Assembly: GCA_017303995.1 (NCBI GenBank) | Contig: JAFLBE010000004.1 | Span: 1 to 64,000, forward strand | From: Bacteroidota bacterium | Lineage (GTDB): Bacteria; Bacteroidota; JABWAT01 | DNA: 64,000 bases | Reading direction: 5' to 3' | The notes under the pieces: model-generated | Told to the model about the DNA's origin: nothing | The model's database searches: none | Seen by the model: the letters and a program-made list of their open reading frames with translations, nothing else | Translations under genes and position numbers: made by a program | In this document: positions 1-4,757 of the stretch, in pieces | Numbering within the stretch: position 1 is the stretch's first letter | How the letters are laid out: each line of letters begins with the position of its first letter

Positions 1-1850
1 TGAAGGTTGAAGTTGAAAATGATGAACTGCTCGTCACCTGGCACGGTGATCTGTTCAGGTATCAAATGACTGACCCGGAAAGCTGCCGGATTCAGGAAAG
101 TCTCTTCCACGAAAAACAAACACTGATCGAGAACTGTCTGTTCGGTGTGGATATCAACCCCAAATCAGTCATGATCTGCCGGCTTCGGCTCTGGGTTGAA
201 CTGCTCAAAAATGCCTATTACAAAAACCAGTTACCTGCGGGACGGACGGAACGGCAACTGGAAACCCTGCCGAATATTGACATCAATATCAAGTTCGGAA
301 ATTCGCTGATCAGCCGGTTTGCCCTGAATGCCGATCTGAAGGAAGCGCTGAAACGCTCGAAACATACGATAGACAGTTACCGGGATGCCATTAAGGTCTA
401 CCGCCACGCCGAAACGAAGGATGTGAGGCGTGAAATGGAACGGCTGATCGGTGAAATCAAAACCAGTTTTCAGTCTGAAATCACCCGCAACGACCCGAAA
501 GCCGTGAAACTGTACAAACTGGCCGGAGAACTCACGACCCTCACCACCCAAACCGGACTTTTCGGCATGACTGACCCGCAGAAAAAGGACTGGACGAAGC
601 AGGTTGACAAGCTCACCGCCGAAGTGAAAAAGCTGGAAGTGGAGATCGAGGACATCAGAAGTAACAAGATCTATGAGAATGCTTTTGAATGGCGGTTTGA
701 ATTCCCCGAGGTGCTGAATGATGAGGGTGAATTTGTGGGTTTTGATGTGGTGATTGGGAATCCGCCGTACATTGTTTTAAGTTCATTTTCAGATAATGAG
801 TTTAAATTTTTCCATGATAATTATGAAACAGCATATGGAAGAATTAATACCTTTGCAATTTTCCTTGAAAAAGTTACAAATTTAATTAAAAAGTCTGGTG
901 TTTGTAGTCTTATCATTCCAGATTCACTTTGTTTAATTGACTATTATGCATCAATTCGTAAATACCTTCTTACAAAGGTTTCAATTACAGAGATAATTGA
1001 GCTTGGTGGGGGTGTTTTTGAAGAAGCGGTCGTCCCTGCAATTATATTTTCATTTTCAAACAAACTTATTGAAAATAACAAAATAAAAATCGGCAATTCT
1101 CAATCTATTTCTAGTTCTTTTTTTACATACCTAAATCAAGTTTATTTTAACCAAACTCCAAAAAACTCTTTCAATCTTCAACTCAATGAACTTTTCATTA
1201 GGATTCACTCAAAAATTGACAATATAATTTGTCATAGACTTTGTGATATTGCAACAATTAAAATTGGAATTTGCACAGGTAATAATGATGAATTCATTTC
1301 AAACTTCGAAAAATTTGAAAATTCAAAAAAACTTCTTCAAGGTAAGGATATAAATCGATATTCAATTTCATATAATAATTTATTTGTAAATTATGATAGA
1401 AAAACTTTATTGAGAGCAAGGGATGAGGAAATATTTTTAAAATCAGAAAAGCTTTTAATGAGACAAACATCTGATAAATTAATTTTGGCGTTTGATGATA
1501 ATCAATTTTATACAATTGATTCTTTATTTATCATTTTCTCTTCAAAAATTCCATTAAAATATCTTTTGGCAATTTTGAACTCAAAACTATTAAATTGGCA
1601 GTATCAAAAGTTAAATCCAGAAAAAGGCCGAGTATTTGCACAGGTTAAAATTGACTTTGTAAATGAATTACCAATTATAACAAATTCAAGCTTTGTAACC
1701 ATAATTGAGAATATCTCAAATCAGATATTACTTCAGAAGAAAGAAAATCCACAGGCAGACACCACCGAACTGGAACGTCAGATAGACCGGTTGGTTTATG
1801 AGTTGTATGGTCTGACCGAAGAAGAAATCCGGGTTGTGGAGGGGGAATGA
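1..1850 (+). CDS. Type IIG (Eco57I-like) restriction-modification enzyme, 3' part
   Basis: The reading frame is open from base 3, so the true start lies upstream of the window. The visible part has the FGVDINPKSV-type element followed by LRLWVELL, typical of Eco57I-class methylases, then a Lys/Glu-rich helical stretch and the catalytic NPPY motif of N6-adenine methyltransferases (bases 759-770, context VIGNPPYI). A TaqI-like target-recognition region follows, then a short helical tail ending at TGA 1848-1850. By family, one polypeptide would methylate and cut DNA at a specific site; the nuclease part would lie upstream and is not visible. Base composition changes abruptly: bases 771 to about 1747 are very AT-rich, while both flanks have ordinary composition, suggesting an exchanged recognition domain. 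Confidence 0.88.
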   Translation, partial: KVEVENDELLVTWHGDLFRYQMTDPESCRIQESLFHEKQTLIENCLFGVDINPKSVMICRLRLWVELLKNAYYKNQLPAGRTERQLETLPNIDINIKFGNSLISRFALNADLKEALKRSKHTIDSYRDAIKVYRHAETKDVRREMERLIGEIKTSFQSEITRNDPKAVKLYKLAGELTTLTTQTGLFGMTDPQKKDWTKQVDKLTAEVKKLEVEIEDIRSNKIYENAFEWRFEFPEVLNDEGEFVGFDVVIGNPPYIVLSSFSDNEFKFFHDNYETAYGRINTFAIFLEKVTNLIKKSGVCSLIIPDSLCLIDYYASIRKYLLTKVSITEIIELGGGVFEEAVVPAIIFSFSNKLIENNKIKIGNSQSISSSFFTYLNQVYFNQTPKNSFNLQLNELFIRIHSKIDNIICHRLCDIATIKIGICTGNNDEFISNFEKFENSKKLLQGKDINRYSISYNNLFVNYDRKTLLRARDEEIFLKSEKLLMRQTSDKLILAFDDNQFYTIDSLFIIFSSKIPLKYLLAILNSKLLNWQYQKLNPEKGRVFAQVKIDFVNELPIITNSSFVTIIENISNQILLQKKENPQADTTELERQIDRLVYELYGLTEEEIRVVEGE

Positions 1851-2139: not shown

Positions 2140-2171
2140 TTTGGATTTCACACAATAAAATATAACATTTG
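2140..2171 (+). promoter_or_regulatory. Bacteroidota-type promoter of small RNA copy A
   Basis: TTTG at 2140-2143, a 19-nt spacer, then TAACATTTG at 2163-2171. This is the Bacteroidota pattern TTTG-N19-TAnnTTTG except for one extra base in the -7 element. The same arrangement and spacing recur in copy B. The predicted start near 2177 coincides with the 5' strand of the RNA's closing stem at 2176. Confidence 0.5.
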
Positions 2172-2175
2172 CAAC

Positions 2176-2290
2176 GTGCTGCGCGAAACTGACTACCTCC
2201 ATCGGTTATAGTCAGCTGAAAGGCCAGAGTGGTGGATGAGACCCAGAACTGGCGAGACCGGCACAAAAAAGGCGGCTTCGGTCGCCTTTT
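2176..2290 (+). ncRNA. Candidate structured small RNA, copy A
   Basis: About 115 nt from a promoter-like element to an intrinsic terminator. The fold has a closing stem GTGC (2176-2179) with GCAC (2261-2264), a hairpin CTGACT/AGTCAG, a hairpin GCCAG/CTGGC, then the terminator hairpin with a TTCG tetraloop at 2265-2290. Compared with copy B about ten bases differ, and one change is compensatory (A-T here, G-C in copy B in the same stem). I recognise no known RNA family. Function is unknown; a trans-acting regulator, an antitoxin RNA or the RNA of a mobile repeat are all possible. Confidence 0.5.
2265..2290 (+). terminator. Intrinsic terminator of small RNA copy A
   Basis: AAAAGGCG pairs with CGCCTTTT, extended by G-T and C-G pairs that close a TTCG tetraloop, an unusually stable loop. 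It has four terminal T residues. Confidence 0.65.
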
Positions 2291-2317
2291 CTATATATAG
2301 ACTAAGATTCAGATTTA

Positions 2318-2425
2318 TGGGGTAAATGACAGTAGGGAATTTTCGGCGTTGCCTACGGCGAGGGACTTAACCGTTCGTCGATATGGAGGGGAGTAGCCGG
2401 CCTCCCATTTACCCCAACTTTTTTT
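2318..2425 (+). ncRNA. Candidate structured RNA with 11-bp closing helix
   Basis: TGGGGTAAATG (2318-2328) is exactly complementary to CATTTACCCCA (2406-2416), and seven T residues follow at 2419-2425, as in a factor-independent terminator. The 77 nt enclosed are GC-rich and can form further hairpins, for example GGAGG/CCTCC near the 3' side. It lies between the two long repeat copies and inside the 35-bp inverted repeats, but is not itself duplicated in the window. I match it to no known riboswitch or RNA family. No Bacteroidota-type promoter is obvious upstream, so it could be transcribed from copy A by readthrough. Confidence 0.4.
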
Positions 2426-2462
2426 CATTTCCTTGAAAAACTGCGCAATATGCAAGAAAAGA

Positions 2463-2481
2463 GTTGGGTTAAAACCCAATA
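2463..2481. repeat. Short palindrome
   Basis: TTGGGTT-AA-AACCCAA forms a 7-bp perfect stem with a 2-base centre between the candidate RNA at 2318 and the right inverted-repeat arm. No function can be assigned. Confidence 0.4.
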
Positions 2482-2503
2482 TCCTTTCAATGTCCCTGAT
2501 CCC

Positions 2504-2538
2504 TCAGCTAAAGCAGACGGCAATAAAATATCATTCAA
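2504..2538 (-). repeat. 35-bp perfect inverted repeat, right arm
   Basis: Exact reverse complement of 1881-1915. The two arms enclose 588 bp containing most of repeat copy A and the structured element at 2318. Only 24 bp separate this arm from repeat copy B, which starts with the same element in direct orientation, so the element occurs three times here: twice direct, once inverted. Confidence 0.9.
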
Positions 2539-2783
2539 TTCGGACAATGGAATCCGTTTACCATTGCCGTCTGCTTTAGCTGACGGAATTATAGATTCAG
2601 GATTTATTAGTCGTCCGGGCTGAAAATCAGGGGAAACGGTGTCCTGGCTCCGGACGAAACTGGCAACCAGGGGATTTATTTTCAACCCTGTCGGGGTTGG
2701 TGGAATTGTTGAAAACACCTATCCACCGGGTTGCTCACCCGGGGCTATTCAAATAACACCCCGTTGGGGTGGGTTGACCCGAA

Positions 2784-2815
2784 TTTGGATTTCACCCAAT
2801 AAAATATAACCTTTG
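2784..2815 (+). promoter_or_regulatory. Bacteroidota-type promoter of small RNA copy B
   Basis: TTTG at 2784-2787, a 19-nt spacer, TAACCTTTG at 2807-2815. Spacing and both boxes match copy A although the surrounding bases differ. The predicted start at about 2821 falls at the closing stem of the RNA. Confidence 0.5.
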
Positions 2816-2819
2816 CATT

Positions 2820-2937
2820 GTGCTGCGCGAAACTGACTGCCTCCATCGGTTATAGTCAGCTGAAAGGCCGGAATGGTGGATGAGACCCAGATCCGACGAG
2901 ACCTGCACAAAAAAGGCGACTTCAGTCGCCTTTTTTT
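2820..2937 (+). ncRNA. Candidate structured small RNA, copy B
   Basis: Closing stem GTGC (2820-2823) with GCAC (2905-2908), extendable to TTGTGC/GCACAA; hairpin CTGACT/AGTCAG; hairpin CCGGA-type with TCCG; then the terminator with a full T-run. In the third stem G-C replaces the A-T of copy A, an A-A mismatch becomes A-T, and one C-G pair becomes C-A, so pairing is largely preserved under change. This copy has the better terminator (seven T residues). Function unknown. Confidence 0.5.
2909..2937 (+). terminator. Intrinsic terminator of small RNA copy B
   Basis: AAAAAAGGCGAC, loop TTCA, GTCGCC and seven T residues: a 12-bp stem including the A-T pairs. It is textbook in form and stronger than the equivalent in copy A. 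Confidence 0.8.
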
Positions 2938-3419: not shown

Positions 3420-4757
3420 TTAAACCTTATCCTGTCTCTCAAACTCAGTTCTCGTCCAGTTGTCAGGACCGGATTTGGTCATGCAGATATTATCCTCAAT
3501 ACGAATGCCGCCAAATTTTCGGAAGGAATCAACCCGGCTCCAGTTCACGTATTTACCGTTTTCAGAGTTTTTCAGATCTTTTAAAAGCGGATCGATGAAG
3601 TAAAATCCAGGTTCAATGGTGAAAACAAATCCTTCCTGAATGGTTCTTGTCAGGCGAAGAAACGGGTGACCTTCTGGTTTGGCAATCAGATCGCCCTGAG
3701 GGTTTGAAGAAAAACCGGCCACATCATGAACCTGCATGCCAAGCAAATGCCCGATTCCGTGCGGAAAGAAAAAGGAGGTTAACTTCTTATCCATGATGGA
3801 TTCAGTTGACAGATCAATAAATTTAAAGTCGTGAAGAAGTCTGGCAACCGCACCATGAGCCCGCAAATGGGTTTGCGGATACGGATCACCAATTCTAAGC
3901 TGGCTGATGATTGCAAGTTGTTCTTTGTCGAGTTCGTGAATCAACTCAGCAAATTCATCTTCCAGAAAGGAATACGTTCTGGTAATATCAGCAGCATAAC
4001 CTGAAACCTGGGCACCGGCATCAATCAGAAAAGAATGAAGGTCGCCATGTGGTTTTCTTGATTTATCGGTAACCTGATAATGCAAAACCGAACCATGTTC
4101 ATTTAAAGCAATGATATTTCCGTAGGGCAAATCACTTTCCATAGACTGGACAGCATTGAGATACGCCAGATGGATTTCAAATTCGGATCCCCCATGATGG
4201 AAAGCCTGTTTGGCTGCTATATGGCCCGTCACTGCAACACGGGTTGCTTCCTTCATCAATTCCTGTTCGTAGGATGTTTTTACCGCACGAAGGAAGTGAA
4301 GCCGGTTCATGAGGTGCTGCGGATTAAGTTGTTTGATACCCATCGATTTAAACTGCATTCCAGACGGACCAATGTAGGCAGCGCCCGCCATATTTGCAGG
4401 TAAAAACGATTTCAGTGTATTCACATCCTCGATGATTTCGATATCAAAAGCATCCACCCAATACCCTTTTGGATGTTCCGGCATGATGTACCAGAAATCA
4501 CTTGCAAGAAAAAACAGAAGTTTCGGTTTTTTGCCGGGCTGAAGAATGACGAAACAGTCCGGATTATCGACAACCGGCACAAAATAATTAAAATGAGCAT
4601 TCACTTTAAAGGGCAAACTCATATCATCCTGAAAACGATAATCGAGTGAACCGGAATGAATCACCAGCCAGTTGTAGCCAAGTTCAGTCATAACCTGAGT
4701 GTAGGCTGCCGTTACCTTTTGAATATGGTCAGTAAATAAAGGTTTTAAATCTTTCAT
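3420..4757 (-). CDS. pepQ: Xaa-Pro dipeptidase (prolidase), M24 family
   Basis: Cytoplasmic metallopeptidase that hydrolyses Xaa-Pro dipeptides. The 445-aa protein follows the PepQ layout: an N-terminal substrate-binding domain beginning MKDLKPLF, then the pita-bread catalytic domain with the five metal ligands D246 and D257 (LIDAGA...GYAADIT), H333 (FFPHGIGH), E382 (TIEPGF) and E421 (GIRIEDN). The start at 4757 is preferred over 4820 because a GAGGA site lies 5 nt upstream and because it removes an overlap with the DinB-like gene, whose TGA stop lies inside that ribosome site. It is the last gene of a minus-strand run; hairpins at 3268-3378 follow. Confidence 0.92.
   Translation of the reverse strand: MKDLKPLFTDHIQKVTAAYTQVMTELGYNWLVIHSGSLDYRFQDDMSLPFKVNAHFNYFVPVVDNPDCFVILQPGKKPKLLFFLASDFWYIMPEHPKGYWVDAFDIEIIEDVNTLKSFLPANMAGAAYIGPSGMQFKSMGIKQLNPQHLMNRLHFLRAVKTSYEQELMKEATRVAVTGHIAAKQAFHHGGSEFEIHLAYLNAVQSMESDLPYGNIIALNEHGSVLHYQVTDKSRKPHGDLHSFLIDAGAQVSGYAADITRTYSFLEDEFAELIHELDKEQLAIISQLRIGDPYPQTHLRAHGAVARLLHDFKFIDLSTESIMDKKLTSFFFPHGIGHLLGMQVHDVAGFSSNPQGDLIAKPEGHPFLRLTRTIQEGFVFTIEPGFYFIDPLLKDLKNSENGKYVNWSRVDSFRKFGGIRIEDNICMTKSGPDNWTRTEFERQDKV

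Follow-up and report, generated by a model that had tools for sequence, protein, structure and literature searches.

In the type III toxin-antitoxin systems (ToxIN, CptIN, TenpIN), the antitoxin RNA is encoded first in an operon with its toxin, a terminator standing between the two, and takes the form of an array of short tandem repeats (PMC5086642). Another toxin, AbiF, is neutralised via direct binding by an adjacent RNA that is unrelated to the family described here (PMC12373285). PBECR2 is a predicted RNase domain of the colicin D/RelE-like BECR fold, found in phages and mobile elements, and PBECR RNases have been proposed by Iyer et al. to counter host RNA-based restriction (PMC5512222). 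The term noncoding RNA is absent from the text of that study, which was also the only paper in which a literature search met the term PBECR2; a survey of plasmid leading regions leaves PBECR unmentioned (PMC11541004).

Here, a small RNA is described that occurs twice in the 64,000-nucleotide stretch of Bacteroidota DNA that was analysed (referred to as the window) and recurs on proteobacterial plasmids, in a phage genome and in a prophage. It resembles the type III systems in its location on plasmids and phages and in that the gene for a small predicted endoribonuclease adjoins one for a small RNA that has a tertiary fold and a terminator of its own. Unlike those systems, it is built from a single unit, occasionally present as two spaced copies and never more than two per site, with no tandem repeat array, and it has its own promoter and converges with the nuclease gene instead of being promoter-proximal in one operon. 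The fold of ToxN also differs from the BECR fold predicted for PBECR2. By its defining features, that is, the lack of a repeat array and the convergent arrangement, the RNA is not a type III member; the adjacent endoribonuclease is the predicted RNase PBECR2 on plasmids, and none was found in the window's genome.

Among precedents for the neutralisation of an RNA-acting toxin by an unrelated RNA, AbiF with its RNA (RF03085; RCd22 in C. difficile) comes closest, being a protein toxin in a mobile or defence context with a conserved adjacent non-coding RNA (PMC12373285). However, the abiF motif measures about 36 nt, is repeated and precedes the toxin gene, AbiF is a HEPN rather than a BECR protein, and no sequence or Rfam match connects it to the RNA described here. 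A HEPN (ApeA-like) gene does lie near the copy in the sister genome G002, yet a HipS-like gene intervenes.

RNA copies of the window and their surroundings

A preliminary description of this DNA had reported a duplicated small-RNA gene with its own promoter and terminator, and the observation as a whole holds, with both copies where it had placed them. Including their terminators, the copies occupy positions 2176-2291 (copy 1) and 2820-2936 (copy 2) of the forward strand and share 92% identity across 115 nt. They belong to a long repeat (1895-2290 versus 2563-2934, with indels) that is 91% identical across its final 198 nt. The repeat is real, but the genome contains four RNA copies rather than two, the further pair lying on contig C86 at 3462 (identical to copy 1) and at 3874 (97% identical to copy 2). 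Both window copies fold more stably than shuffled sequence (z of -2.4 and -2.25). Palindromes of the TTGCCGTCTGCTTTAGCTGACGGA type, in 39-nt inverted and direct copies (1881-1919, 2500-2538; 2563-2587), flank the RNA repeats, and numerous other palindromic intergenic repeats, CACCCCGTTGGGGTG and CACCGGGTTG...CACCCGGGG, are found in the window.

Both repeat ends carry the reported TTTG-N19-TAACnTTTG arrangement, the last base of which lies 5 nt before the RNA. As read from the sequence, the putative promoter of copy 1 spans 2140-2171 (TTTG at 2140-2143, 19 nt, then TAACATTTG at 2163-2171) and that of copy 2 spans 2784-2815 (TTTG at 2784-2787, 19 nt, then TAACCTTTG at 2807-2815), both on the forward strand. 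The boxes are indeed close to the Bacteroidota sigma-A pattern, but the match is inexact, since the -7-like box has one base too many: three bases separate TA and TTTG, where the usual TAnnTTTG has two. Intrinsic terminators follow at 2266-2291 (copy 1, from the fold and a terminator scan) and 2910-2936 (copy 2, from the fold). Within its own genome, every recurrence of the promoter block accompanies an RNA copy, in line with the proposal that the RNA spreads as a unit; that proposal does not extend to copy C86a and the G002 copy, which are without the TTTG promoter and instead start 20 nt after the stop codon of a HipA-N (Couple_hipA, HipS-like) gene.

The contig starts inside a gene for a type IIG restriction-modification (RM) enzyme, of which the C-terminal part (66-1850, forward strand; Eco57I methylase and TaqI_C specificity domain) is preserved, and the two promoter-RNA units follow directly. 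On C86 the order is a type IIG RM gene, a HipA_C protein (PADLOC PDC-M03A), a HipA-N protein (PDC-M03B), the RNA and a second RNA, whereas in G002 an ApeA-like HEPN protein and a HipA-N protein precede the RNA; both loci continue to the same cation-efflux gene. Because C86 and G002 differ in their upstream genes, the HipS-like gene plus the RNA is the piece shared by the two species, and the RM gene is one among several changing neighbours. The suggested link of the RNA to restriction-modification is thus incidental. Within the window's genus, a HipA-N (HipS-like) gene precedes the RNA, and the locus forms part of a defence island. C86 thereby resembles the HipBST and PDC-M03 systems, having HipA_C and then Couple_hipA genes immediately before the RNA, unlike the window copies, which are without any hip gene; to our knowledge, no RNA component is known for these systems. 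This association is established less securely than the one with PBECR2 on plasmids.

Positions 1-770 of the window and of the C86 locus (L007) encode nearly the same half of a type IIG RM enzyme and then continue into different specificity halves, in open reading frames of 594 and 651 aa. This suggests either that the RM locus was duplicated and the target-recognition domains were exchanged, or that the assembly is broken at the repeat.

A three-way junction with kissing loops

In copy 1, the structured core extends over 2176-2264 (cmsearch 119.4 bits with model R1 and 84.6 bits with model R3) and is predicted from covariation to form a three-way junction of a closing stem, P1, and two hairpins, P2 and P3. 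The P1 strands are GUGCUG (2176-2181) and CGGCAC (2259-2264), and the core motif CGCGAAAC at 2182-2189, present in most family members, leads into P2 (2189-2215). This hairpin combines CUGACU/AGUCAG with ACC/GGU around a 3-nt UAU bulge, and 98% of its cells are paired family-wide, with compensatory changes. The junction CUGAAAG (2216-2222), for which the proteobacterial counterpart is CGUAGGAA, is followed by P3 (2223-2253), a GCCAG/CUGGC hairpin with a large loop that was delimited by the covariation analysis. The P2 loop UCCAUC (2198-2203) is complementary to the P3 loop segment GGUGGA (2231-2236). Copy 2 has the same architecture (core 2820-2908; 117.7 bits with R1, 82.6 bits with R3), the loop-pairing analysis placing UCCAUC at 2842-2847 and GGUGGA at 2875-2880; all of these features lie on the forward strand. 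The folded elements described earlier, namely the closing stem, the CTGACT/AGTCAG hairpin, the third hairpin and the intrinsic terminator, are thus all present, although the closing stem comprises six base pairs and not GTGC/GCAC, and the pairing between the P2 and P3 loops had been absent from that structure. The third stem does show the reported A-T to G-C change: among four distinct copies, the base pair concerned is A-U, G-C or G-U.

The covariation among the few near-identical Bacteroidota copies alone is not above chance and becomes decisive only with distant homologues. In an alignment of 17 sequences, compensatory changes affect both sides of 15 of the 19 base pairs, and compensatory cells number 67, where shuffles gave 22 +/- 4 (0/500). 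An alignment of 25 sequences (24 distinct), fitted to the structure, gave 95 such cells against 33 +/- 4 (0/500). When the pairing partner was slid by one to three columns, the paired cells fell from about 90% to 25-46%. The junction letters are invariant or nearly so: CGCGAAAC stands between P1 and P2, with CGGGAAGC or CGAGAAGC on plasmids of Leclercia, Raoultella, Yersinia, Serratia and Pantoea, the P2 bulge is of the UAU/AAU type, and G(U/C)GAGAC-like letters precede the closure of P1. The stems of the family include G-U pairs.

The P2 loop of 6-7 nt is complementary to the P3 loop segment in all 25 aligned copies, which carry 12 distinct loop sequences. With one sequence per distinct loop (n = 12), none of 200,000 permutations reached the observed score. 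The P2/P3 loop pairs are UCCAUC/GGUGGA in the window, UCCAUC/GGUGGG in G002 and GACAGA/UCUGUC in a third genome of the phylum (G122), UUCAGC/GCUGAA in Pseudomonas, CUCUCC/GGAGAG in Vibrio, UUAGGG/CCCUAA in Klebsiella, UCAGGG/CCCUGA in Serratia and AGCGGG/CCCGCU in the prophage. These patterns of substitution identify the RNA as a three-way junction with a kissing loop. Proteobacterial copies carry a further hairpin (e.g., CACCTTTCGTCTGAAGGTG) between core and terminator (L098 6594-6680; just after P1 at enterobacterial loci), which is absent from the window copies. A reading of the element as an integron attC site was dropped, as the RYYYAAC/GTTRRRY ends are absent.

No family of Rfam 15, abiF RF03085 included (cmscan, gathering threshold), matched in the 64-kb window, and none matched at that threshold in ten further RNA-carrying loci. 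With a structure very strongly conserved across phyla, this bears out the earlier suggestion of a functional, undescribed RNA family. Sub-threshold Rfam matches on the window (CRISPR-DR25, mir-142, STnc250 and others), as well as PrrB/RsmZ on the Pseudomonas aeruginosa copy (23 bits against a cut-off of 44), were driven by the terminator or due to chance. The window copies carry the features that mark the family: the P1-P2-P3 junction, the core CGCGAAAC (or CGNGAANC), the UAU/AAU-type bulge and complementary P2 and P3 loops.

The RNA was found in three of 394 sampled genomes of the phylum, with the stems conserved in the homologues. Besides the window's genome (G000), these are the sister genome G002, with one copy (L038), and G122, from another family, in which the covariance model R1 detected a tandem pair, separated by 117 nt, next to a prokaryotic Argonaute gene. 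Just upstream of this pair, near the long pAgo gene, are three tRNA-like sequences that have GGTTCGAATCCC arms and are not called by ARAGORN (L059, minus strand, about 1974-1640, on contig C175). Beyond these genomes, the RNA was found in tens of proteobacterial plasmids, two IMG/VR contigs, Pseudomonas phage Cygsa01 and a Mu-like prophage. As a blastn query against plasmids and phages the window RNA gave no credible match, while the G122 copy matched an intergenic stretch of a P. aeruginosa plasmid of 12 kb, from which 27 more plasmid records and phage Cygsa01 were reached. Nearly all of these records are from Pseudomonas, Klebsiella, Enterobacter, Citrobacter, Escherichia, Kosakonia or Vibrio; one short Actinomyces match was left out of the count. 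The IMG/VR contigs were added by a pattern scan, and the prophage by a search across Gammaproteobacteria in which it was the one positive among 369 genomes, a group picked via a Halomonas genome and with assemblies that may miss many plasmids. Scans of viral and genome contigs with the Bacteroidota core letters gave mostly chance matches in coding DNA, the sole genuine one being that in the sister genome. Weak model matches at four loci (L060, L061, L085, L087) were rejected for lying inside coding sequence, as was a Providencia phage match (H5) that was coding and partial.

The convergent PBECR2 gene on plasmids

On proteobacterial plasmids the RNA has a constant neighbour, a solo PBECR2 (PF18810) predicted RNase gene that is convergent with it and ends about 40-90 nt beyond P1. 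This gene was present in all eight plasmid regions opened and on both IMG/VR contigs. Counting the opened regions together with the records for which RNA and PBECR2 match tables gave agreeing coordinates, 21 of 21 cross-checkable plasmid records show the linkage. The reverse also applies: eight PBECR2 loci unflagged by blastn and chosen blind to the RNA (Leclercia, Raoultella, Yersinia, Pantoea, two from Serratia, Citrobacter freundii and Klebsiella michiganensis) all have the RNA in the equivalent position (E <= 1e-13), although Raoultella, C. freundii and K. michiganensis are not independent lineages because their RNA sequences are identical. The plasmid neighbours exceed the Pfam cut-off of 27.1 bits, scoring 45.5 to 60.1 bits in six proteins, and H, R, K and N residues are invariant among the plasmid relatives. 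A single-sequence AlphaFold model of the L113 nuclease, built without an alignment, had a pLDDT of 37.

Sigma-70-like boxes (TTGACx-N15-19) precede nearly all plasmid copies, the -35 box being TTGACx or near it and the -10 box ending 1-6 nt ahead of P1, so that the promoter stands in nearly constant register to P1. Scores of single copies are often not above those of shuffled sequence, and the argument for a promoter is this constant position. The boxes lie on duplex DNA upstream of P1, outside the fold; those of an Frpo/ssi single-strand DNA promoter form within a hairpin of one DNA strand. Intrinsic terminators follow nearly all copies, often preceded by an additional hairpin. Together, these promoters and terminators suggest that the RNA is transcribed. 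Inverted repeats across the -35 box (TTGACGgtagCGTCAA, TGACGttagCGTCA; L102 5940-6000, L107 4470-4500) look like a repressor operator.

Elsewhere, the neighbouring protein changes. A PBECR2 gene was not found in G000, G002 or G122; no PBECR2-related loci were found in viral contigs, and tblastn of PBECR2 against phages gave no match. In phage Cygsa01, a 168-aa protein (L106 4158-4664, minus strand) is convergent with the RNA, arranged like PBECR2 on the plasmids; it has no Pfam or PHROGs match and no similarity to plasmid PBECR2, and is possibly another partner fold. The open reading frame tested next to the RNA of the Mu-like prophage had no Pfam match. Given these three observations, the RNA has a broader distribution than any single protein.

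Candidate functions and significance

Its constant position beside a predicted RNase gene on plasmids makes it probable that the RNA belongs to a toxin-like conflict module. The reading that we favour, at a little under an even chance, is that of a mobile-element RNA that binds a toxic RNA-acting protein of such a module and holds it in check or targets it. An RNA of about 90 nt plus terminator would be transcribed as its own unit, would adopt the three-way junction locked by the P2-P3 kissing loops, and would bind, then inhibit or target, the toxic protein. On plasmids the partner would be the neighbouring predicted RNase of PBECR2 fold; for the window's genus, the nearest candidate is a HipS/HipA-like module, whose HipS-like gene precedes the RNA by 20 nt in two species. 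The working mode would be like that of a type III (RNA-protein) toxin-antitoxin pair, but in a single-unit and convergent form. Fold and genetic linkage are observed here, whereas direct binding, inhibition and the choice of partner for the window's genome are our inferences. The absence of PBECR2 from G000, G002 and G122, the unmatched neighbours in the phage and the prophage, the convergent gene order and the lack of a repeat array count against this reading. The interpretation offered in the preliminary description is partly supported. More tentatively, and with the balance somewhat against it, one kissing-loop RNA class may pair with toxins of unrelated folds (PBECR2; HipS/HipA-like) and be exchanged across phyla by plasmids and phages; with the same reserve, such a class of RNA-protein conflict modules may have been previously unrecognised.

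The persistence of the RNA while the neighbouring proteins change would also suit an anti-defence decoy that mobile elements carry to occupy a defence nuclease of the host or one of its conserved factors, with PBECR2 as a fellow anti-defence RNase and not a partner. We consider this unlikely, though well worth entertaining. UmuD, ArdC and mobC genes surround the copy on the E. coli plasmid, and psiB lies near the Pantoea copy; genes of these kinds occur in leading, anti-defence regions (PMC11541004), and the proposed action of PBECR RNases against host RNA-based restriction (PMC5512222) points the same way. However, co-occurrence with PBECR2 (8/8 and 21/21) is tighter than expected of two independent cargo genes, and the window copies lie in a chromosomal defence island. 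It is improbable that the element is a self-cleaving ribozyme or ligand-binding RNA, comparable to hammerhead ribozymes or purine riboswitches, a reading which would account for the near-invariant CGCGAAAC, G(U/C)GAGAC and UAU/AAU bulge around a kissing-loop three-way junction; no regulated gene lies downstream in the direction of the RNA, terminators follow and the plasmid neighbour converges, and no Rfam ribozyme or riboswitch matched. The core motifs also differ from the hammerhead pattern CUGAUGA/GAAA/UH.

In the window's lineage, the RNA could be a functionless relic, a fragment of the 3' UTR of the HipS-like gene carried within intergenic repeats. The promoterless C86a and G002 copies just past the HipS-like stop codon fit this, the four near-identical copies could be young duplicates, and the genome has no PBECR2 partner; yet copies 1 and 2 have their own promoter and terminator, and the changes between window and sister genome keep pairing (GGUGGA to GGUGGG opposite UCCAUC; A-U/G-U/G-C in P3), which makes a relic a poor prospect. 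A single-stranded DNA element folding as DNA, such as a single-strand promoter, a primase site or a recombination site, is very unlikely: promoter boxes for double-stranded DNA end just ahead of P1 and a terminator follows, in register, the stems contain G-U pairs, and chromosomal defence islands, a phage and a prophage carry the element too. What would speak for it is that the plasmid regions are rich in transfer, resolvase and integrase genes and that Frpo/ssi single-strand promoters occur in such regions (PMC11541004).

Few structured RNA families cross phyla, and the present one is absent from Rfam. No regulator is known for the solo PBECR2 proteins, which are predicted RNases; on conjugative plasmids of Klebsiella, Enterobacter, Serratia and Pseudomonas, this family provides them with an RNA partner in strict linkage. 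If the RNA is a decoy, it would be an RNA anti-defence factor; if it is an inhibitor, these clinically important plasmids would carry a new RNA-controlled toxin.
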